From positions 2,034,001 to 2,098,000 of the forward strand of contig NZ_CP041402.1 in assembly GCF_007018905.1 (NCBI RefSeq): a DNA stretch of 64,000 nucleotides, written 5' to 3'. The notes below the pieces were generated by a model. The model made no database searches, was not told the DNA's origin, and worked only from the letters and a program-made list of their open reading frames with translations. Position 1 is the stretch's first letter. Each line of letters begins with the position of its first letter. The translations under genes were made by a program, and so were the position numbers. Below are positions 3,301-22,683 of the stretch, piece after piece. This DNA comes from Tardiphaga sp. vice304. GTDB lineage: Bacteria; Pseudomonadota; Alphaproteobacteria; Rhizobiales; Xanthobacteraceae.

Positions 3301-4341
3301 CTAGCAAGTGGTAGGCTGAAGCTGCGATAAATAGTCGGACCACCACTGCATCATTTTCCGCCGGTCTGGCAGCCATTCAGCCGCATTGTAGGCGCGCCTT
3401 ACTTCGTTTCGTTCGACGTGCGCGAGCTGACGTTCAATCCAGTCACGATTAAACAAATTGCTTTCGTTCAAAATTGTGGAAGCCACACCGCGAAACCCGT
3501 GTGTTGTCGCGCGACCATGATAGCCCATCCTATAGAGAGCATAAAGCATGGTGTTGCTAGACATGCATCGCTCCTTGCCTGCTGATGGAAAGATATGGTC
3601 GCTCTTTCCCGCCAAGACGCGAAGTTCTTTTAGTAGTTGTACCGCTTGGGTGGACAACGGAACTATGTGCTCTAAGCGCATCTTCATTCTGTCAGCAGGG
3701 ATTCGCCATTGAGGTGATATTCCATTGAGGTCTTCGAGTTCATCCCATTTTCCCGCACGCAGCTCCGTTGTTCTGAGAAACGTTAGGGTCACCAACTTTA
3801 GCGCCAGCTTGGTCTGTAATTTGCCCCCATATGTCTGCAATTCTCGCAAGAATTTCGGAAGGTCGGCAGCTGGCATAGCCCTGTGGTGCTGCGGTTCGCC
3901 GGTCGCCCGTAATGCGTCTTTGAGATCAGCGGAGGGATCGCGTTTGGCTCGGCCTGTTACGATGGCAAACCGAAAAATCTGCCCCACTAGCTGCTTCAAT
4001 CGCCTGGCCGTTTCATTTACACCGCGTTTTTCGACTTTGCGGAGCATATCTAGTAGCTCGGGAGGCTCAAGTTCGGCGATTGGACGCCGGCCAATTTCTG
4101 GAAATACGTCCGCCTCCAGTCGGCGCAAGATCTGCCAAGCATAATAGGGAGTTCGCGCACTTTTCCAGTTTTCATGCCACTCACGTGCAACCGCTTCAAA
4201 GGTATTTTCACTGGCAATCCTTGCGGCTCGTTTCCGCTCCCTCTTCACCTGCGATGGATCAACACCGGAAGCCAAATTGCGCTTGGCTTCGTCGCGCGCC
4301 GCGCGAGCGTCCGTCAAGCTGACGGCGGGATAAACGCCTAA

Positions 4342-5276
4342 GAGTCTGACTCATAATGAATTCGTTTGATTTCAGGCTTTTGCAAGCCGTCTTATAAGGA
4401 CGCGAATGTGAGCGACGAACGCCCAGGCAACGGCGCTGGCGATTGTGGTCTCGAAGTCCTTTGCCAATCTGCGGCAGCGACCGAGCCATCCGAACGTTCG
4501 TTCGACGACCCATCGGCGCGGTAGGATTTCGAAGCCCTGCTCCCTGTCGGATCGTTTTATGATTTCTATCGTCCAATTGCCGATGCGCTTCAAAGCTTGA
4601 CGCAGCTTATCTCCGGCATAGCCACCATCGGCAAAAATATGGCGCAGCCACGGATAGCGATAACGTATCGAAGCAAGAACGCACGGGGCACCATCACGGT
4701 CCTGAATGCTGGCTTCGTGCACGACCAGCCCGACCAAGTTTCCTTGCGTGTCGGTGACGATGTGGCGCTTGCGGCCCTTGATTTTCTTACCTGCATCATA
4801 GCCCCGGGGGCCGCCGCTTTCCGTGGTTTTCACCGACTGGCTGTCAATCACTCCGGCCGTTGGGCTCGCCTCTCGGCCAGCCGCCTCGCGCGAGGCCATC
4901 ACGAGCGTGTAGTTCAGCGACGCAAACAGTCCGCCGCGCGACCACGCGTAGAAATAGCCCTGCACCGTCGAGTAGGGCGGGAAATCCTTGGGCAACTGCC
5001 GCCATTGGCAGCCGGTCGACGCAATATACAGGATCGCATCCATCACCGTTCGCATATCTGTCGCACGCGGGCGACCGAGCGCCGAAGCAGGCGGCAGAAG
5101 CGGCTCCATCACAAACCACTCGGCATCCGTCGTATCGCTTTCATATCGCAAGCTCGCCCGCCTATAGTGTCGGCGGGTGATTTCAGTCCAGACCATCGTG
5201 CTCTCCCTCGAATCTTCGCAAATCCGAAGGAATCACAACTGGCTGAAATCACTCAGCTTCTTTTTCAGTCAGCCTC
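4342..5276 (-). mobile_element. IS5-family insertion sequence, copy 1 (935 bp)
   Basis: The ends are imperfect inverted repeats, GAGTCTGACTCATAATGAA and GAGGCTGACTGAAAAAGAA, each read inward. The element is flanked by a 3-bp direct repeat TAA (4339-4341 and 5277-5279). The TNA-type 3-bp duplication, the size and the single transposase gene fit the IS1031/IS427 side of the IS5 family. It sits inside the integrase gene. Copy 2 at 18882-19816 has the same length and an identical deduced transposase, in the opposite orientation. Confidence 0.9.
4372..5196 (-). CDS. IS5-family transposase (copy 1)
   Basis: This 274-residue DDE transposase has a DUF4096-like N-terminus (DAEWFVMEPLLPPASALGRP). The catalytic residues appear in VIDSQSVKTTESGG (first Asp), IFADGGYAGDKL (second Asp) and VVERTFGWLGRCRRLAKDFE (Glu), in the usual IS5 order. 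It is complete, with its start near the right terminal repeat and its stop 30 bases from the left end. The protein is identical to the copy at 18962-19786, so both insertions are recent relative to the decay around them. Confidence 0.93.
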   Translation of the reverse strand: MVWTEITRRHYRRASLRYESDTTDAEWFVMEPLLPPASALGRPRATDMRTVMDAILYIASTGCQWRQLPKDFPPYSTVQGYFYAWSRGGLFASLNYTLVMASREAAGREASPTAGVIDSQSVKTTESGGPRGYDAGKKIKGRKRHIVTDTQGNLVGLVVHEASIQDRDGAPCVLASIRYRYPWLRHIFADGGYAGDKLRQALKRIGNWTIEIIKRSDREQGFEILPRRWVVERTFGWLGRCRRLAKDFETTIASAVAWAFVAHIRVLIRRLAKA

Positions 5277-5434
5277 TAAGGCAAGCGTCCGCTGTTTACT
5301 CTGCCATCGGTAAGCCAAGCGCCAGTACTTCGACCCGTTGGTGTTGACGAGAAGATGCAGTCCACCGACGTCCGAAAGCTTCTGCGACGTTGATTGCTCT
5401 TTCACATTTCTGCACTTTAGGTCGCTGAGAGGCA

Positions 5435-7705: not shown

Positions 7706-9385
7706 TTGCCAGATCACAACACACTCGGCCTCGCCTCTCATTGTCCCACAGACAACCGTGACAATGCTCAAGCTCTTCGGTCCTTCCCCTGGCCGGGGGA
7801 CAAAGCCATGCACCTGAAGTGGCTTCTCCCGCTTCTGCCAGAGTGCAATCATTACGTTGAGCCGTTCGGCGGCTCAGCCGTCGCCCTGCTGAACCGGCCC
7901 AACTCGCCAATCGAGACGTACAACGACCTTGATGGGGAGGTCGTAAACTTCTTCGGGATCGTGCGGGACCAACCCGATGAACTTAAGCGTCTCATCGACC
8001 TCACACCCTACAGCCGCGCCGAGTTCGCGGCTTCGCTCGGCCCGAGCGAGCACCTATCCGACCTGGAGAGAGCAAGACGTTTCTATGTTCGCGTGAGGCA
8101 AAGCTACCAAGGATTTTCCGTGAACGCGCTTCCGTATAACTGGGGGACGACACCGAACGAGAGCAGGAATGGAATGTCCCTCGCTTCGGCACGCTTCAGG
8201 TCTGGCGCGACTCGGTTCAACGATCTTGCGTCACGACTAAGCGGGGTTTTAATGGATAGCCGCCCTGCCATGTCAGTCATAGCGGCACTAGACGCGCCGG
8301 ACAGGCTATTCTATTGCGATCCGCCATATGTGGCTGAGACGTGGAAACGCAAAGATAAAACCTACACCAACATCTTGACCGACGATGATCATCGAGACCT
8401 TGCGAGTGCTCTCAATGAGTGTCGTGCCAAGGTGGCGATCTCGGGCTATGATTCCGTCCTCTACAGCGATCTTTACCCAGCGGCCAAGTGGCGGAAGATA
8501 ATTGCTCCCCCTCAGAGAAGCCACGCGTCCAAACGCTACCGGCAGGAAGTTCTCTGGTGCAACTACGGGGACGATGGGAAGCGGCTTCGGCACACAATGG
8601 TCGCCGGGGCGGTGTTGGAAAATCCAACCCCCGCCAACACTCAGGTGAACGTGCTCGTCTCCCAAGTAGCGCTCGCAGCAATCGATGCCTGGAAGGCAAA
8701 AGGTCGCCAGCATAAGGCGCTCCACGCCTTCATGGGACGTACATACAGCCTCGCAAGCAAACTCAGCGATGACGAATCCGAATTCAACCGTATCATGCAG
8801 GCTCGGGGTATAAAGAAGCCGAAGCTCGATCACCTTTATTATCACCTGATCCAAGCATTTCAGCCCGAGGAACAGCGCGCTGACCCCGACATGAAGTCGG
8901 AAGCGTCGCGCTTGAAGCGGGCTTTCATCCAAGCCGAGGCGCTTGGCTACACGCCGGGGGATTTTGTGCGCCGGATCGAGCGCAAGGAAGTCGTGGCCGG
9001 AAGAAGGATCAGCGGCGTTAACAAGCTGATCAAGCTGGCTCGACTCTCAAAGCCGCTAAAGAGGGTGGATTTCACTTCCGAAGCGGCCGGACTGCCGGGC
9101 ATGGCCCTTCCTGATCGCGGTGCAAGCTTCATCGACTTGTCGGGCTACCTCGCCACGATGCTGAATAAGGCCATTCCACATGGTGAGCGGCTCACTGCGA
9201 TGGATGCGGCAGCGGACGCAGCGGAGAGGGCGGGCGTCTCGCCGGACCAGATTGAATTTCACCTATCGGTAATCCCAGGCCGGGTAACCATTGCCCCGGC
9301 CGCCCTCACCGGACGACCGGAGCCATGGCGGTCTCGTCCCAAGGCTCGCCGGTCGAAAGGGCTCGCAACAGCTTCGACAATCTGA
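7706..9385 (+). CDS. D12-class (Dam-like) adenine DNA methyltransferase with long C-terminal extension
   Basis: This 559-residue protein should methylate N6 of adenine in a short target using S-adenosylmethionine. Residues about 26-33 (SFPWPGDK) and 51-60 (VEPFGGSAVA) are the SAM-binding motif, and DPPY at 205-208 is the catalytic motif. The SYQGFS segment and the order of motifs are those of the alpha-class Dam/D12 family. Family members are usually about 270 residues. Here roughly 270 more residues follow (from about 290), helical and basic, that I do not recognise. The start is uncertain: TTG 7706 is the only in-frame codon upstream of the PWPGDK motif. No restriction endonuclease is adjacent. 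Confidence 0.8.
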   Translation: MPDHNTLGLASHCPTDNRDNAQALRSFPWPGDKAMHLKWLLPLLPECNHYVEPFGGSAVALLNRPNSPIETYNDLDGEVVNFFGIVRDQPDELKRLIDLTPYSRAEFAASLGPSEHLSDLERARRFYVRVRQSYQGFSVNALPYNWGTTPNESRNGMSLASARFRSGATRFNDLASRLSGVLMDSRPAMSVIAALDAPDRLFYCDPPYVAETWKRKDKTYTNILTDDDHRDLASALNECRAKVAISGYDSVLYSDLYPAAKWRKIIAPPQRSHASKRYRQEVLWCNYGDDGKRLRHTMVAGAVLENPTPANTQVNVLVSQVALAAIDAWKAKGRQHKALHAFMGRTYSLASKLSDDESEFNRIMQARGIKKPKLDHLYYHLIQAFQPEEQRADPDMKSEASRLKRAFIQAEALGYTPGDFVRRIERKEVVAGRRISGVNKLIKLARLSKPLKRVDFTSEAAGLPGMALPDRGASFIDLSGYLATMLNKAIPHGERLTAMDAAADAAERAGVSPDQIEFHLSVIPGRVTIAPAALTGRPEPWRSRPKARRSKGLATASTI

Positions 9386-10863: not shown

Positions 10864-12348
10864 TCATCCAGCACTGAGCGGCGTAGCGTACTTCGTGGGT
10901 CGCCCTGGCCCCCGGTGAATTCCTGCTGCCTCTCTCCGTCCACGCTCAACTGATCGCGCCCGCCGCTTCCGGTCGGCGTCGCGTTTCCGGCGCTCAGCCT
11001 GTCGCTCGGCTTTGCTACGCTCGTCCACCTGGATCGGTCTCCGACCTGCGTTCGGCCGTTTGAAGTCGATGAGCTTGGCCTCCTCAACACCATGCAGCGT
11101 TACATCAGCAATCCGACCATCGACAAGGAAGTCTCGAACTGCCTCCGCTTGCCAGACATCGTAGACGTAGATGTCATAGCGCCCGTAGAAGTCCGGATTC
11201 CGAATCGCACCTCGCATCACGAACTGCTGGATATCTTCAATCTCACGGGCTCGTACGATCTGATCCTTGGTGAGACCGAACATTTCCAAGATCGCGGAGT
11301 CGGCGTCTTGCGCTTTGTTGGAATAGATGATCGCACAGGAAGTGAGTTGCCTATAAGCGTTCGTTCCTGCTTGGCGCGGACGTACCATCTTGCCTTTAAG
11401 CAGCGCCCTAAAACGGTCAAGGACAAGTTTGTTGCCCGACCAAAACCCCAGGTCAGGTAGCTTGCCGAGATAACGACCGACAATATCGAGGCAATCGCCC
11501 CCGTCGCCATCCTTCCAGAACTCGGTCGAGCCATGGTGCCTTGCGAAATAGTGGATGTGCACGTCTGGTTGATCCAACCGGGGAGATTCGATCAATTCGC
11601 GGCAACACTCGATCTCGTCGGGGAATATGCTGTTGGTCGCTATAGCGCACAGACTGGTATTATAACCGGACGCCGCGATCTTTACGCTCGCGCACATAGC
11701 AAGGTCACGAGGTGTCCAGAGAGACCACCAACGGATTGGCTTGGATCGGTCGAACGCTTCGTCCCAGGTTTTTACATCAACATACACCCCTGAAACGCTG
11801 AGTACGCGTTTGTGAAAGGCAGCAAGCTGATCGACCAGATCGTCTTGTATGAAGTGCCTAATAGATGGCGAATCAGCTTTCGACTGCACCTTGCACCACT
11901 TCGTGCCCTCGACGTTGGTTAGATCGTACAGCGTCTCAAGCAATCTAGACCCTACGGGCACTTGAAACTTACCGGATGCTACGGCGTCGGGAGTTTCATC
12001 GATACGAACGTGCCAACCTTTTATTTCGGCCGGATCGATTGATTGAAGTCCTTCGTGCGTTATAGCCAGAATGACATGGTGTGCGTTTTGATGCTGGCGA
12101 CAAGCGTCAACGACACGCCGCTGAATCGGACCGGCTACGCGTTGGTCAGAGTGGATTGAGATTATTGTTGGTTGCGCTCCCGGCTGCCCCGCAAGTGATC
12201 TGAGCGACAGGACGTGTTCTTCAATCAGTGCCGTTCGAGGAACCGCAAGAATGTATCGACCTAGGCAGGTAATCATCTCGTTTAGCATCCGAAACGTTTT
12301 TCCCGATCCGGGCAAACCCTCGATTATGGTAATGCATGTAGGTTTCAT
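10864..12348 (-). CDS. P-loop NTPase, helicase-like, function unknown
   Basis: This 494-residue protein has a clear Walker A motif at residues 11-18 (GLPGSGKT) directly after a beta strand (TCITIIE). A candidate Walker B lies near residue 115 (WHVRIDETPDAV). The rest is moderately charged with no recognised accessory domain. The last 70 residues are very basic (DERSKAERQAERRKRDADRK and onward), as in nucleic-acid-binding tails. ATG 12348 has a GGAG ribosome site. The overall build suggests a superfamily 1/2-like ATPase of plasmid or island origin, perhaps for replication or transfer, but that is a guess. Stop TGA 10864-10866 is nine bases from the IS407-type insertion. Confidence 0.7.
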   Translation of the reverse strand: MKPTCITIIEGLPGSGKTFRMLNEMITCLGRYILAVPRTALIEEHVLSLRSLAGQPGAQPTIISIHSDQRVAGPIQRRVVDACRQHQNAHHVILAITHEGLQSIDPAEIKGWHVRIDETPDAVASGKFQVPVGSRLLETLYDLTNVEGTKWCKVQSKADSPSIRHFIQDDLVDQLAAFHKRVLSVSGVYVDVKTWDEAFDRSKPIRWWSLWTPRDLAMCASVKIAASGYNTSLCAIATNSIFPDEIECCRELIESPRLDQPDVHIHYFARHHGSTEFWKDGDGGDCLDIVGRYLGKLPDLGFWSGNKLVLDRFRALLKGKMVRPRQAGTNAYRQLTSCAIIYSNKAQDADSAILEMFGLTKDQIVRAREIEDIQQFVMRGAIRNPDFYGRYDIYVYDVWQAEAVRDFLVDGRIADVTLHGVEEAKLIDFKRPNAGRRPIQVDERSKAERQAERRKRDADRKRRARSVERGRREAAGIHRGPGRPTKYATPLSAG

Positions 12349-17084: not shown

Positions 17085-17426
17085 TTACCAGCCGCCGTTA
17101 CCGCCAATGAGGCCCCTTCGGGCCGACACGCCGCTGCTGGGGTGCCTCCGGTCGGGCTACGCCCTCCCTTCGTCACCCCAGCAGCGGCGCATTCTCATCC
17201 TGATTGTCGCGGGATTCTCATCCTGATTGTCGCGCTACACGACACCATCTTTTATAATTACTTCGTCCATAATTCAACAATTACGGGACGCCGACCGAAC
17301 GTGTCATACCCATAGCTTGCTTGTGTCATGAGTCCGTGTCGGTCGAGAAGAAACAGCCGTACACAGGCAAAGCCTCGGGCGAGAATGCGGCCATTGCTTC
17401 GCAATGTCGGATCACCGCGTTAGAAG

Positions 17427-18044
17427 CTAAATGAGTGTTGGATCGTCGCCTGCCATCCTTACGGCTGTTAGACCTTCTTCGTATGACTGCTCTATCGATC
17501 TGCCCGCCGCTAGCGCAACGTAGAAGCCGGTGGAGAAATGTACGGCAGCGCCATCATTGATGGATTGATCCATACCGATAGTGAGGGGCAAGATCGCTGC
17601 GACCAAGTTGCAGAATTGCAAGCATTCAACACAACGCACTTTATCGTTTTTTGCTTATTCAGAAGCTCAGCGACTGCTTCTAACGGTACATCGATGGCTG
17701 CCTCGTTCTCGTCCTCGAAGACCAGCACGTCTGCATTTGCGTGGCCAGAAAAATGGACAATCTCGTATTGCTCGCGCAGCAACTGTCATCGCTGATTCTT
17801 GAGGCGTAGCAGCGGGCAATGTTTCATACATTATGCTGCTGCCTCGGGGGTCATTCCGTATAGCGTCCTTGATAGCTGGCGATTCGCCATTGACCCGCAG
17901 TTGTTTCTCGTCCCGAGGGCTACACAGCACGTACAAGACCCGTACCGCGTCCAGTATCTCGGTGAGATCATGCATGATGTCGCCAGACGACCTAATCTGT
18001 AGGCAACGCAGGCTTTGATCGCGCCTTCGCGGATACGGATTCAT
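17427..18044 (-). pseudogene. CHAT-domain (caspase-like) protein, multiply frameshifted
   Basis: Three consecutive frames together read as one protein. First comes HDLTEILDAVRVLYVLCSPR with a downstream acidic stretch. Next is EQYEIVHFSGHANADVLVFE with VVLNACNSA, which holds the His and Cys of the CHAT protease dyad. Last comes LTIGMDQSINDGAAVHFSTG with FYVALAAGRSIEQSY. CHAT proteins are caspase-like peptidases, often in defence or cell-death operons. Frameshifts near 17760 and 17610 break it, so no active product is expected. It sits about 190 bases beyond the IS21 right end. I see no intact partner gene. Confidence 0.75.
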
Positions 18045-18175: not shown

Positions 18176-18205
18176 GATGTGAACCATCCTAACTGGACCG
18201 CAAGA

Positions 18206-18841: not shown

Positions 18842-18881
18842 AGGCGCGCATATCCGCCCAGTAGTGATCATTTGCGTCTTA

Positions 18882-19816
18882 GAGGCTGACTGAAAAAGAA
18901 GCTGAGTGATTTCAGCCAGTTGTGATTCCTTCGGATTTGCGAAGATTCGAGGGAGAGCACGATGGTCTGGACTGAAATCACCCGCCGACACTATAGGCGG
19001 GCGAGCTTGCGATATGAAAGCGATACGACGGATGCCGAGTGGTTTGTGATGGAGCCGCTTCTGCCGCCTGCTTCGGCGCTCGGTCGCCCGCGTGCGACAG
19101 ATATGCGAACGGTGATGGATGCGATCCTGTATATTGCGTCGACCGGCTGCCAATGGCGGCAGTTGCCCAAGGATTTCCCGCCCTACTCGACGGTGCAGGG
19201 CTATTTCTACGCGTGGTCGCGCGGCGGACTGTTTGCGTCGCTGAACTACACGCTCGTGATGGCCTCGCGCGAGGCGGCTGGCCGAGAGGCGAGCCCAACG
19301 GCCGGAGTGATTGACAGCCAGTCGGTGAAAACCACGGAAAGCGGCGGCCCCCGGGGCTATGATGCAGGTAAGAAAATCAAGGGCCGCAAGCGCCACATCG
19401 TCACCGACACGCAAGGAAACTTGGTCGGGCTGGTCGTGCACGAAGCCAGCATTCAGGACCGTGATGGTGCCCCGTGCGTTCTTGCTTCGATACGTTATCG
19501 CTATCCGTGGCTGCGCCATATTTTTGCCGATGGTGGCTATGCCGGAGATAAGCTGCGTCAAGCTTTGAAGCGCATCGGCAATTGGACGATAGAAATCATA
19601 AAACGATCCGACAGGGAGCAGGGCTTCGAAATCCTACCGCGCCGATGGGTCGTCGAACGAACGTTCGGATGGCTCGGTCGCTGCCGCAGATTGGCAAAGG
19701 ACTTCGAGACCACAATCGCCAGCGCCGTTGCCTGGGCGTTCGTCGCTCACATTCGCGTCCTTATAAGACGGCTTGCAAAAGCCTGAAATCAAACGAATTC
19801 ATTATGAGTCAGACTC
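18882..19816 (+). mobile_element. IS5-family insertion sequence, copy 2 (935 bp)
   Basis: Same length and terminal repeats as the copy at 4342-5276, in the opposite orientation. It is flanked by TTA on both sides (18879-18881 and 19817-19819). It entered the last codons of the Cys-rich family A gene at 19809-20090, whose stop codon now lies inside the IS end. Confidence 0.92.
18962..19786 (+). CDS. IS5-family transposase (copy 2)
   Basis: A 274-residue DDE transposase identical in sequence to the one at 4372-5196, with the same motifs (VIDSQSVKTTESGG, IFADGGYAGDKL, VVERTFGWLGRCRR). It is intact. Identity between the copies implies recent transposition or gene conversion. Confidence 0.93.
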   Translation: MVWTEITRRHYRRASLRYESDTTDAEWFVMEPLLPPASALGRPRATDMRTVMDAILYIASTGCQWRQLPKDFPPYSTVQGYFYAWSRGGLFASLNYTLVMASREAAGREASPTAGVIDSQSVKTTESGGPRGYDAGKKIKGRKRHIVTDTQGNLVGLVVHEASIQDRDGAPCVLASIRYRYPWLRHIFADGGYAGDKLRQALKRIGNWTIEIIKRSDREQGFEILPRRWVVERTFGWLGRCRRLAKDFETTIASAVAWAFVAHIRVLIRRLAKA

Positions 19817-20090
19817 TTAGATTGGTGATGATACTTACACCTCTCCACGTTCCAGTTTTTACGCAGTTTGCTTTAGCTGCACCGCACATCTTCGAGCAGT
19901 ATTGCGGAGATGAATTGTAGGTGTATTTTCCATTGGTACAGTTTCCCTGGCAGGCCAAGGCTATGTCGGAACACGATCTATCGCCTCCTTCATACTGAGG
20001 GCAAGAAGGACCGGGCTGACAAGCGAAGTCAGTCTGCGCCAATGCTGGCGTGCACGCTAAGGATAGGACGAAAACGATCACAGCACGCAA
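19809..20090 (-). CDS. Small exported Cys-rich protein, family A (3' end altered by IS)
   Basis: A 93-residue protein starting with TTG 20090 behind a strong AGGAG. It has a signal peptide (MRAVIVFVLSLACTPALAQ) and a mature part with eight cysteines (FAC, PSC, RSC, LAC, GNC, QYC, KMC, ANC), then GTWRGVSI. Close relatives lie at 21433-21729 and 21025-21312. The IS5 copy 2 entered at codon 91, so the last residues (RV and stop) come from the IS; the sister protein ends NMRRE. The fold is probably disulphide-stabilised in the periplasm or outside. I do not recognise the family and no function can be read. Confidence 0.75.
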   Translation of the reverse strand: MRAVIVFVLSLACTPALAQTDFACQPGPSCPQYEGGDRSCSDIALACQGNCTNGKYTYNSSPQYCSKMCGAAKANCVKTGTWRGVSIITNLRV

Positions 20091-20155
20091 AATTATCTCC
20101 TGATATGATCTATAGGATCAGTCTATCCAATCTCTGATCGCTTGCGCTTATTGTT

Positions 20156-20260
20156 TCGGTATGCGACTTCCCAGTGGGAAACGTAACTGAGGATTTCCCG
20201 GCGAACAAGTGTGCGTCGGCAGATGGCCCCGAACCGCTCGCTTCGGAATTTCTTGACCGA
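20156..20260 (-). pseudogene. Degenerate relic of a family C Cys-rich gene
   Basis: Read on the minus strand this gives ERFGAICRRTLVRREILS, parallel to ERFGASCRRTLVFPGNPYSS of the intact family C proteins, and the DNA matches over about 100 bases (compare 20775-20870). Four of the six conserved cysteines are gone or shifted and there is no signal peptide in frame. It is a third, dead copy of family C. Confidence 0.6.
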
Positions 20261-20358
20261 TGCTGATCGACCGACGCGTCGGAGTTGAGTTTGAGGAATT
20301 GTATGAGAACGGGTACCCTGGCCGGGATAAACGACTACGCAAACCGGAGTGACAAAAG

Positions 20359-20718
20359 ATGAGACTACACACATTGATCATAGGCGCGAGCCTATTGGCG
20401 TCTTCGTCGGCTTGGGCGGAATGTCAGCAGTCTCCAATGAACTGGAGGTATCAGAACGAGACCGAGCAGGTCATTCTTTCAGGTACTCGCGCCGGGACGT
20501 GCAGGCTCCAATGGACCACGTTTGGCTCAGGGACGGTTGAGAAAGTCTCACTCGTCGCTCGGCCGCAGAAAGGCTCGGCTCAGACTTCGACATCCGGTGT
20601 CGTTTATAGTCCGGGGCGCAACTTTGATAGCCAGGACAGCTTTTCAGTGCGAGTTTGCGGCAACAATCGAGCAGGCGGCGGCTGTTCGACGTTAAACGTC
20701 TCGGTGGAGCTTAGGTGA
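20359..20718 (+). CDS. Small exported protein, family B (Ig-like-type repeat motif)
   Basis: A 119-residue protein with a signal peptide (MRLHTLIIGASLLASSSAWA) and a mature region rich in Ser, Thr and Val with beta-strand alternation. It contains VVYSPGRNFDSQDSFSVRVC and GGCSTLNVSVE. The same end motif, YSP..., then FSV(R/K)VCG...GC(S/T)T, occurs in the protein at 21883-22239, so these are paralogues. The pattern suggests an Ig-like beta sandwich closed by a Cys pair, which is an inference. A CGGAG ribosome site precedes ATG 20359. It is the only plus-strand gene of the array and faces the family C gene at 20737-21021. Confidence 0.75.
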   Translation: MRLHTLIIGASLLASSSAWAECQQSPMNWRYQNETEQVILSGTRAGTCRLQWTTFGSGTVEKVSLVARPQKGSAQTSTSGVVYSPGRNFDSQDSFSVRVCGNNRAGGGCSTLNVSVELR

Positions 20719-20736
20719 CGAGTAAGTGGCACTTGC

Positions 20737-21021
20737 TCAAGGTCGGCTTACCCGGCAGCCTTGCGGAAATGGCGGGTACGGATTTCCAGGAAACACAAGA
20801 GTGCGCCAACAGCTTGCCCCGAACTGCTCGCACGGGAGTTTAGCGACCGACAAATCCAGCCTAACTAGCTCGTTTGTGCAGTTCTGCACCGCGCCAGCAC
20901 AGGTGCCCGCTTGGCAGAACGGAAGGTTATTACCTTGTGCCTGGGCCAATGCTTGGGTTGTGAGTTGTCCTACGCACAACGCCGAGAATGCGGCTAAGAA
21001 GACGGATCGTGACAGTCTCAT
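20737..21021 (-). CDS. Small exported Cys-rich protein, family C, copy 1
   Basis: A 94-residue protein with a signal peptide (MRLSRSVFLAAFSALCVGQL, cleavage probably after ALAQA) and six cysteines in the mature part. The core is LPFCQAGTCAGAVQNCTN and ASCWRTLVFPGNPYPPFPQG. It aligns along its length with the protein at 22399-22683. It lies three bases after the stop of the family A' gene (21025), so the two are probably co-transcribed. Function unknown. Confidence 0.78.
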   Translation of the reverse strand: MRLSRSVFLAAFSALCVGQLTTQALAQAQGNNLPFCQAGTCAGAVQNCTNELVRLDLSVAKLPCEQFGASCWRTLVFPGNPYPPFPQGCRVSRP

Positions 21022-21024
21022 CGT

Positions 21025-21312
21025 CTACTCTCGCCTTACTCCAGTAACAGTAATATCTCTACCCTTCCACACGCCGGTCGATACGCACACTGCGCGATAT
21101 CTTGCACACTCAGCTTCACAAGTTTCGCGACCGTTCGGGATCGGGCAGTTCGATGTCAAGCAGACGCTTACTCGTCCAGAGCATGTTTCAGATGAAAGCG
21201 CCTTCCGCGTCCCCCAAATCTGCGCCTGAGCGTGGGCGCAGACTGGCAGAACCAAAGCTTGTCCCGCGATCATAAGGGCGAGCAATACTGCTCTCTTCAC
21301 GTGCGTACTCAC
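21025..21312 (-). CDS. Small exported Cys-rich protein, family A' (divergent)
   Basis: A 95-residue protein starting at GTG 21312. The signal peptide is MSTHVKRAVLLALMIAGQAL ending VCAHAQA. The mature part keeps the last six cysteines of family A (ETC, SVC, SNC, ETC, AEC, AVC) and the ending CVSTGVWKGRDI, against CIRTGTWRGKDI in the full family A protein. Its 5' end lies in the duplicated block 21260-21413, whose second copy (21821-21973) is joined to a different gene. Confidence 0.72.
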   Translation of the reverse strand: MSTHVKRAVLLALMIAGQALVLPVCAHAQAQIWGTRKALSSETCSGRVSVCLTSNCPIPNGRETCEAECARYRAVCVSTGVWKGRDITVTGVRRE

Positions 21313-21413
21313 TTTCTCAATTCAATTCACCTCGGCCGCAACAACGACAGTTGTGCAGCCAAGGGGTGTGCGAACTCACACCGCAGACTTTCACAGAGAA
21401 TCCGTCATTACCG
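21260..21413. repeat. Segmental duplication, copy 1
   Basis: About 154 bases nearly identical to 21821-21973 (direct orientation, offset 561, one single-base length difference). It spans the 3' end of a family B gene and the 5' end of a family A' gene. Confidence 0.92.
21322..21413 (-). pseudogene. 3' remnant of a family B gene
   Basis: The minus strand encodes FSVKVCGVSS and, after a one-base slip, GCTTVVVAAEVN. These are the last 30 residues of the family B protein at 21883-22239. No 5' part is present. It is the left-over of a B copy after the duplication. Confidence 0.75.
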
Positions 21414-21432
21414 GGAATGACCTTTTAGTTTG

Positions 21433-21729
21433 TTATTCTCGACGCATGTTCACGATTATGTCTTTTCCGCGCCACGTTCCGGTGCGGATGCACTGATCCC
21501 TGTAGCCGCCACATAGTTTTCCGCAATATTGAGGAGATGAATTCGATGTGTACCTGCCCAAGGTGCAGTTTCCCTGGCATTCCAGTGCGATCTGTGAGCA
21601 AGACCGACCACGACTCTCGAATTGTGCACAAGAATTTGCCCCCGGCGCGCAATAATAATCTTGCTGTGCGACTGCGCTACTTGCAGCCAACGAAGCAGCA
21701 AACGCAACAACGACGCGCATTCCGTTCAT
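21433..21729 (-). CDS. Small exported Cys-rich protein, family A, full copy
   Basis: A 98-residue protein. Starts at 21729 (MNGMRVVV) and 21720 (MRVVV) are both possible, with the signal peptide VVVAFAASLAASSAVAQ either way; a longer frame from 21780 would lack a signal peptide start. The mature part has eight cysteines at the same spacing as the 19809-20090 protein, sharing IALECQGNCT, NSSPQYCGK and GTWRGKDI. The protein is small, hydrophilic and probably tightly disulphide-bonded. The function is not recognised. Confidence 0.75.
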   Translation of the reverse strand: MNGMRVVVAFAASLAASSAVAQQDYYCAPGANSCAQFESRGRSCSQIALECQGNCTLGRYTSNSSPQYCGKLCGGYRDQCIRTGTWRGKDIIVNMRRE

Positions 21730-21820
21730 TCTCGGGCAAAACCGAAGTAAGTATTGTGTCTTCCAGTTCTTAAAGCTCATTCCGATCCCCGCTTACCGAT
21801 CAAGCCGATTAGTAGACTAG

Positions 21821-21973
21821 TGTCCCGCGATCATAAGGGCGAGCAATACTGCTCTCTTCACGTGCGTACTCACTTTCTCAATTCAATTCACTTCGGCCGC
21901 AACAACGACAGTTGTGCAGCCAGGGCCTCGCGAACTCACACCGCAGACTTTCACAGAAAATCTGTCATTACCG
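21821..21973. repeat. Segmental duplication, copy 2
   Basis: The partner of 21260-21413. Here the family A' signal-peptide start is cut after about 17 codons, and the full family A gene stands next to it instead. Confidence 0.92.
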
Positions 21974-22239
21974 CGCGTGCTGGGAGAGTAGCTTATGCCA
22001 GAGCCACTGGCATAAACCTTTCCTCGCTTTGACTGAGAAACAACGGTTGCGCTCGTCGTGTGGGCTACAGGACCATACATCTGGAATGGGAAGCTGCATT
22101 CGGTGCCCACACCTACGCTAGCGCGAATATTGGTGGATTCCCCGTTGAACCATACGTCAAAGTTGCTATGCGAGCCTGCGACAGCAGGCGAACATATGAA
22201 AAACGAGGCAAGCGCGAGTGCCCACAGACGAATTTGCAT
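21883..22239 (-). CDS. Small exported protein, family B, copy 2
   Basis: A 118-residue protein. ATG 22239 is chosen because a signal peptide starts there (MQIRLWALALASFFICSPAV, then AG); the frame itself opens at 22290. The mature region shows beta-like alternation and ends ISYSPSTRGNDRFSVKVCG and GPGCTTVVVAAEVN, as in the 20359-20718 protein. The last 30 codons lie in the duplicated block. Probable Ig-like fold; role unknown. Confidence 0.72.
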   Translation of the reverse strand: MQIRLWALALASFFICSPAVAGSHSNFDVWFNGESTNIRASVGVGTECSFPFQMYGPVAHTTSATVVSQSKRGKVYASGSGISYSPSTRGNDRFSVKVCGVSSRGPGCTTVVVAAEVN

Positions 22240-22398
22240 AGCGCCCCCCGGTGCTGCGAATGCCGTGCCGCTACTCTCCCGTGGGGACATCTCTAAGTCA
22301 AGTTCCCTGATGATCGTCGCAGCGCACGTCCATGAGCGCGCACGCTAGGCTGAGACACTGCGGTTCTGTTCCGCTCTGATCACCGTGGGCGCTCGCGT

Positions 22399-22683
22399 CT
22401 ATGGCCCCGTCACTCGGCAACCTTGCGGAAATGAGGAGTACGGGTTTCCGGGAAACACAAGAGTGCGCCGACAGCTTGCCCCGAAGCGCTCGCACGGAAG
22501 TTTTCCGACCGACAAGTTCAACGTAGCTCGGGCGTTAGTGCAGTTTTGCACCGCGCCAGCACAGGTGCTAGCTCGGCAAAACGGAAGGTTACTAACTTGC
22601 GCCTGGGCCGATCCCTCGGTTGCGAGTTGTCCGATGCAGAACGCCGAGAATGCGGCAAGGAATACAGATCGCGGCAGTCTCAT
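22399..22683 (-). CDS. Small exported Cys-rich protein, family C, copy 2
   Basis: A 94-residue protein. ATG 22683 begins a signal peptide (MRLPRSVFLAAFSAFCIGQL) nearly the same as that of copy 1 at 20737-21021, and AGGA precedes it. The six-cysteine pattern (FCRASTCAGAVQNCTN ... LPCERFGASCRRTLVFPGNP) is conserved. DNA similarity to copy 1 extends over the whole gene, with most differences in the middle. It is probably the first gene of the minus-strand array. Confidence 0.76.
   Translation of the reverse strand: MRLPRSVFLAAFSAFCIGQLATEGSAQAQVSNLPFCRASTCAGAVQNCTNARATLNLSVGKLPCERFGASCRRTLVFPGNPYSSFPQGCRVTGP

Follow-up and report, generated by a model that had tools for sequence, protein, structure and literature searches.

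Do the seven small genes that lie side by side at 19809-22683 of the stretch studied here encode one secreted system or a collection of independent proteins? The stretch (the window; 64,000 nucleotides) comprises bases 2034001-2098000 of the 5.79-Mb single-contig genome of Tardiphaga sp. vice304. An initial annotation had assigned its seven open reading frames (ORFs), all of which are present, to three unrecognised families, A (A1, A2 and the divergent A'), B (B1 and B2) and C (C1 and C2), and had taken them for a multi-component set. We read the array as an island-borne bank of predicted exported proteins that are likely binding or protective, and give this reading a probability of about one half, a figure that applies mostly to its anatomy. 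A1, A2, A', C1 and C2 probably belong to one superfamily by sequence, the C copies being assigned to it through one bridging protein, L113. This superfamily is so far unnamed; we define it here as the twin-CX6C superfamily. The three families thus become two, since A, A' and probably C join.

The A1-alignment profile found one relative, L052 of genome G220 (E 1.3e-4), in 296 genomes of the bacterial family; the window's own genome and G220 alone passed E 0.001. With E up to 1 allowed, 167 of the 296 genomes had a match to this profile; the low-scoring ones were set aside as mostly chance, many with stop codons. A G277 match (E 9e-4) from a separate search was dropped for its two stops, and a later scan of its locus, L046, showed no match. 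Searching the 242 genomes of its genus with L052 gave matches in six: L052 itself, three close relatives, and a pair of weak frames that contain stops. The A1/A2 profile scored 21.7 bits on A', a score reached by none of 10000 shuffles that kept the cysteines; the corresponding counts were 0 of 10000 for L052 and 3 of 10000 for L106. Conversely, a profile of four g25 proteins put to A1, A2 and A' was reached by 6, 0 and 0 of 10000 such shuffles. At the level of sequence profiles, then, A-type and g25 proteins recognise each other beyond cysteine spacing. A search of 199 genomes of the order with a combined profile, A7, added matches in three more genomes. For two of these, L112 and L113, neither score was reached by any of 5000 shuffles of either kind; the third, L114, has an internal stop and was left out.

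L113 is the protein that draws in the C copies. It scored 18.0 bits with the C profile (0 of 10000 shuffles, cysteine-kept ones included) and 30.0 bits with the A-type profile (0 of 10000 shuffles). Because both profiles match it, C most likely lies in the A superfamily. The C profile was put to nine proteins and was clear for L113 only; on A' it reached E 0.013 among 3180 frames. Several results weigh against including C. It is tied to A through L113 alone, and direct alignment of A to C with hhalign gave a probability of 1-2%. The A-superfamily profile was reached by 454 of 5000 cysteine-kept shuffles for C1 and by 57 of 5000 for C2. With the C profile the counts out of 3000 were 52 for A', 55 for L106 and 76 for L104, and results on A1, A2, L052, L105 and L112 were worse than on these three. 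Of the superfamily members tested, none scored up to a cut-off in Pfam or NCBIfam, and none matched a PDB entry.

The superfamily carries a mirror pattern, C-x6-C-(x3-4-C)-loop-(C-x3-4)-C-x6-C-x2-[TS]. All six cysteines, with a loop of 7-13, are found in 20 of 30 collected proteins and the outer four only in a further 9; L125 shows neither arrangement. The five window proteins all have two CX6C arms followed by x2-[TS], with six cysteines in A1, A2 and A' and four in C1 and C2. Proline makes up 8.7% of loops versus 1.9% of arms. Part of the regularity in cysteine pattern is owed to the way the proteins were found, since profile searches weigh cysteine.

Mirrored spacing around a loop of variable length is what two antiparallel helices with nested disulfides need. 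A shallow model of A, built from two sequences, has helices at 40-52 and 62-79, with a pLDDT (predicted local distance difference test) of 74-81 over this block. For the superfamily we predict a hairpin of two antiparallel helices in which two or three disulfides form nested staples, the pairs that we infer being C40-C76, C47-C69 and C51-C65 (A1 numbering). The structure prediction that the initial annotation had proposed as a check thus yielded a hairpin for A, though with a mean pLDDT of 61 from two sequences, and the C model (pLDDT 39) was of no use. Also to be set against the hairpin are the other four of the five A models, at pLDDT 37-43, and a PDB fold search with the A model in which nothing fell below E 3.7.

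Purifying selection is seen in those array genes whose divergence can still be measured. C1 and C2 differ by 0.46 synonymous (dS) and 0.13 non-synonymous (dN) substitutions per site, and B1 differs from its counterpart in a sister species (G230) by dS 0.17 and dN 0.05; dN/dS is about 0.3 in both comparisons, which argues that the array reading frames are real. For A1 and A2 silent sites are saturated (proportions of differing sites pS 0.95 versus pN 0.29; dN 0.37). The paralogy proposed for A1/A2 and C1/C2 was borne out at 59% and 76% protein identity, as was the kinship of A' with A. All seven proteins pass a simple signal-peptide rule, in keeping with the signal peptide that each had been given; the rule is weak, and four other frames of the same 7-kb stretch pass it too. 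The TTG start of A1 has AGGAG six bases upstream, as read from the sequence. We found no sigma-70-like promoter (0 sites versus 1.5 expected) and terminators at no more than chance level.

How was the array assembled? Read on the minus strand it runs C2-B2-A2-(B relic)-A'-C1-(B1 inverted)-(C relic)-A1, which the initial annotation had seen as a C-B-A cassette duplicating as a unit. That claim was not borne out. The A, B and C pairs differ widely in divergence, so that C-B-A was not duplicated as one piece, although gene conversion of the C pair could mask an older duplication event; moreover, B1 is inverted and groups with the G230 gene and not with B2. A 154-bp segment made of a B tail and an A' start flanks A2 on both sides at 95% identity, which is what one crossover or an unequal exchange at this place would be expected to leave behind. 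Both relics named by the initial annotation were confirmed by DNA matches. That of C matches both C copies (E 2e-6 and 7e-6), and its frame is also matched by the C profile (E 2.4e-4). The insertion sequence (IS) element on the left ends at about 19820, inside the 3' end of A1, whose final codons are therefore IS sequence. Together, relics, selection and the signal-peptide rule support the picture of predicted exported proteins under turnover with dead copies. An integron cassette array was considered and rejected: 3.1 kb hold three GTTRRRY and two RYYYAAC motifs, unpaired around the genes, and the gap between A' and C1 is 3 bp.

Table 1. Features of the array in window coordinates, and Tlde1-domain genes beside twin-CX6C genes in coordinates of their own loci.
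Feature	Position	Strand	Remarks
IS4/5-type element	18878..19820	+	943 bp, which may take in a short target repeat, identical to copy 4338-5280; left boundary of array
A1, twin-CX6C protein, predicted exported	19809..20090	-	TTG start; final codons within IS element
C-type relic	20156..20260	-	best DNA match 20191-20260
Stretch matching sister-species locus L039	20293..20726	+	91% over 447 columns; takes in B1, 66 bp upstream of it and 8 bp beyond its end
B1, single Ig-like domain, predicted exported	20359..20718	+
C1, divergent twin-CX6C protein	20737..21021	-	starts 3 bp past A' stop
A', divergent A-type twin-CX6C protein	21025..21312	-	six Cys in mirror pattern
Direct repeat, copy 1	21260..21413		5' end of A' and B-type relic
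Relic, 3' end of B2-type gene	21322..21413	-	inside 154-bp repeat
A2, twin-CX6C protein	21433..21720	-	alternative frame start at 21780
Direct repeat, copy 2	21821..21973		5' fragment of A' and 3' end of B2
B2, B-family protein, predicted exported	21883..22239	-
C2, divergent twin-CX6C protein	22399..22683	-
Tlde1-domain gene, L150	5492-6676
Tlde1-domain gene, L152	5426-6709
Tlde1-domain gene, L155	6929-8140
Tlde1-domain gene, L157	5175-6548
Tlde1-domain gene, L159	4856-6169

The B proteins are predicted from sequence to be immunoglobulin (Ig)-like and to form a dispersed family separate from A, A' and C. Fourteen aligned members have invariant C, G, Y and D-x-F positions in common, and for B1 and three relatives there is a partial match to the Big_9 domain (PF17963; E 0.0003 to 0.055). 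Against the Ig-like assignment, B1 scores 20.4 bits on Big_9, the best of these four proteins reaches 22.1 where the cut-off is 23.6, and B2 has no match. The B profile found matches in 33 of the 296 family genomes, spread over 15 of 47 genera. The Ig-like character that the initial annotation had seen in B thus stands as that of a dispersed family below the Big_9 cut-off, and of its three unrecognised families two are left, B being the Ig-like one. The B profile also met two phage structural proteins in the PDB (E 0.008 over 35 positions), a match that we left unused.

In a phylogenetic tree B1 joins the G230 gene (support 98/97) and B2 joins L043 (92/87), so that the two B genes most likely arrived separately. 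At the G230 locus, L039, B has three genes opposite it in strand: one for an endolysin, one for an Rz-like spanin (a weak match, E 0.005) and one for a phage-type regulator. Tested as a prophage moron, B1 has integrases, resolvase and IS elements as its scanned window neighbours; lysis genes flank B only in L039. PHROGs gave no match for B. The same locus carries a trypsin-like protease gene (PF00089; L039 5103-5867) 2 kb from the B gene.

We then asked how far the twin-CX6C proteins extend and what accompanies them. Run on 198 family genomes with an E limit of 0.01, a ten-row profile, A8, found 22 with a match, the window's own included. Inspection left 17 other genomes with a match, 16 of them (of 197 other family genomes) with the twin motif. 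Among the 23 non-window matches, L129, L132, L136 and L137 were dropped (lacking the twin motif, containing stops, or being a 58-residue frame with no signal peptide); L125, without the twin motif, and L120, with a stop codon in its N-terminal part, were kept though imperfect. Ten same-genus genomes covered by this search gave no match. With the C profile, the source genome itself was the only one of the 296 family genomes to give a match.

The window and 39 other loci were then scanned with the A8, B and Tlde1 profiles. The non-window loci comprise 25 A-type, 11 B-type and 3 empty ones (L046 and the window flanks L165 and L166). Within the stretches fetched, every one of the 25 A-type loci holds one such gene; the window, with five, is the exception. 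It is the sole array of these genes seen, and relatives elsewhere come one gene at a time. Where the loci were read through by eye, the genes stand singly beside seemingly ordinary metabolic genes. A-type and B-type genes occur together in none of the 36 occupied loci. Two genomes, G179 and G027, carry both kinds, each at a place of its own; in G027 a stop interrupts the B match. Recurrent co-occurrence of A, B and C, which the initial annotation had named as support for a system, was thus not what we found; with C in no other of 296 genomes, the multi-component set is not supported.

Further searches widened neither family. Word-based search of genome contigs with C and A found none, which shows only that close relatives sharing short words are absent or left out. 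There was no match among plasmids to A2, among phage records to B1 or C2, or among IMG/VR contigs to A, B or C. The titles and abstract openings covered by a literature search contained no paper on the twin-CX6C pattern.

The composition of the window suggests that the array likely sits on a foreign island. The G+C content is 53.6% at 20-22 kb, where the array lies, versus mostly 62-68% past 28 kb, and the left part of the window is wholly lower (51-62%). This part holds two tyrosine integrases (3.3 and 5.7 kb) and a resolvase gene at 18179. Near the array are transposase genes that we take to be of IS3 and IS21 type, the IS21-type pair (14.7-17.1 kb) lying outside the domain scan. The right end of the IS4/5-type element recurs at at least 15 more places in its own genome (16 of 40 candidates scored). 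Among 17 other same-genus genomes, array DNA was matched in two, G230 (over B1) and G214 (32 bp). To be set against an island is the fact that no empty site was found.

Other features of this part of the window are recorded here in their own right. A CHAT-domain protein fragment (PF12770, E 9e-6; 17513-17782), apparently a relic, lies left of the IS element. The integrase gene at 3301-4317, seemingly without its N-terminal part, stops at the IS copy 4338-5280. Adjoining the IS21-type genes, at 17129-17234, are a 29-bp inverted repeat and then a 21-bp direct repeat pair. A protein without a Pfam match, encoded at 10864-12348, is related to PHROG 2467 (unknown function); a D12-type methyltransferase gene at 7706 is near it, in a phage-like part of the island.

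On the reading that we favour, the proteins would leave the cytoplasm through Sec, form their disulfides in the periplasm, and then stay in the envelope or outside as small stable proteins that bind or protect, whether the cell's own envelope is shielded or an outside enzyme, peptide or phage is warded off. Genes would have come in one at a time from other places (B1), been duplicated and fused where short repeats allow homologous recombination (A2), and left to decay (the relics). Such capture, copying and decay of single genes would make the array a bank whose accessory genes are independent of each other, rather than one machine. Independent envelope accessory proteins are favoured by the purifying selection, by the spread as single genes, by the phage-side B gene in L039 and by the lack of a widely shared partner. 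The binding or protective role is one that we infer. That A, B and C form a single three-component secreted system duplicating as a unit would fit the C-B-A order, present twice in outline, and the operon-like spacing of A' and C1 on one strand. It is nevertheless very improbable given the co-occurrence counts, the inversion and separate origin of B1, and the unequal ages of the copies. Two relics and IS damage could also mark a decaying cluster without present function. The seven intact frames and the constraint between copies make this improbable, although for the old pairs that constraint may lie in the past.

Two further readings give the proteins a target. As an exported bank of immunity proteins or inhibitors, the hairpins and Ig-like domains would bind, and so block, wall-cutting or proteolytic enzymes that are delivered to the envelope. 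In 5 of the 25 A-type loci, in two genera, the twin-CX6C gene adjoins a gene for a Tlde1 domain, which is named after a type VI effector (Table 1), and small size, disulfides and turnover would suit inhibitors. Four of the five adjacencies, however, fall at a single conserved position within genus g34, and one genome alone supplies the fifth, which leaves two independent cases; Tlde1 genes are frequent in this order, and the Tlde1 profile has no match in the window. We therefore regard this role as unlikely. Its bolder extension, in which twin-CX6C proteins are widespread exported hairpins serving as envelope-side inhibitors or immunity proteins, and the island collects, copies and discards them along with phage-carried Ig-like genes, is speculative and distinctly unlikely. 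Secreted effectors or toxins aimed at a eukaryote or at rival bacteria might also be small, cysteine-rich, predicted exported and island-borne, with dead copies. Yet the measurable pairs are under purifying and not diversifying selection, no secretion-system domain was found in the 16 window ORFs put to Pfam, and in the loci read through relatives sit by seemingly ordinary metabolic genes, all of which makes secreted effectors quite unlikely. We thus retain the bank of independent accessory genes, and as such the array illustrates how an island may gather small exported genes through single-gene capture and short-repeat recombination.

Finally, we compared the families with known systems. Lambda Bor and similar genes are lysogenic-conversion genes, and the B gene of L039 resembles them in standing opposite in strand to endolysin and Rz-like spanin genes; unlike Bor-type genes, B is predicted to be Ig-like and has no PHROGs match, and searches of phage records (with B1) and of IMG/VR contigs (with both B queries) gave nothing. 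Big_9 is matched in part by B1 and its three relatives; B differs in being a single short domain, predicted to be exported, and all four proteins score below the cut-off. DUF3551 proteins (PF12071) are small and exported-looking, as is C, but C1 scores 16.6 bits versus a cut-off of 26.5, C2 has no match, and the three DUF3551 proteins of the same genome have a cysteine spacing other than that of C; the family was rejected for C. So was Penaeidin (20.1 and 19.4 versus 25 bits), whose match runs through signal peptide and cysteines and was taken as chance.

A further likeness is to the twin-CX3C and twin-CX9C hairpins (small Tim and CHCH proteins) and the plant alpha-hairpinins, in which two short helices with mirrored cysteines are held by nested disulfides. 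The twin-CX6C proteins share the mirrored cysteines and, as predicted for A, the nested-disulfide antiparallel helices. Unlike those hairpins they are bacterial and predicted to be Sec-exported, the members tested reach no Pfam cut-off, and their spacing is C-x6-C-x3/4-C in place of C-x3/4-C-x6-C. The superfamily offers a handle and a predicted disulfide pattern for short exported proteins missed by the profile libraries used and, if the hairpin holds, would be a minimal bacterial scaffold of stapled helices with a loop of changing length.

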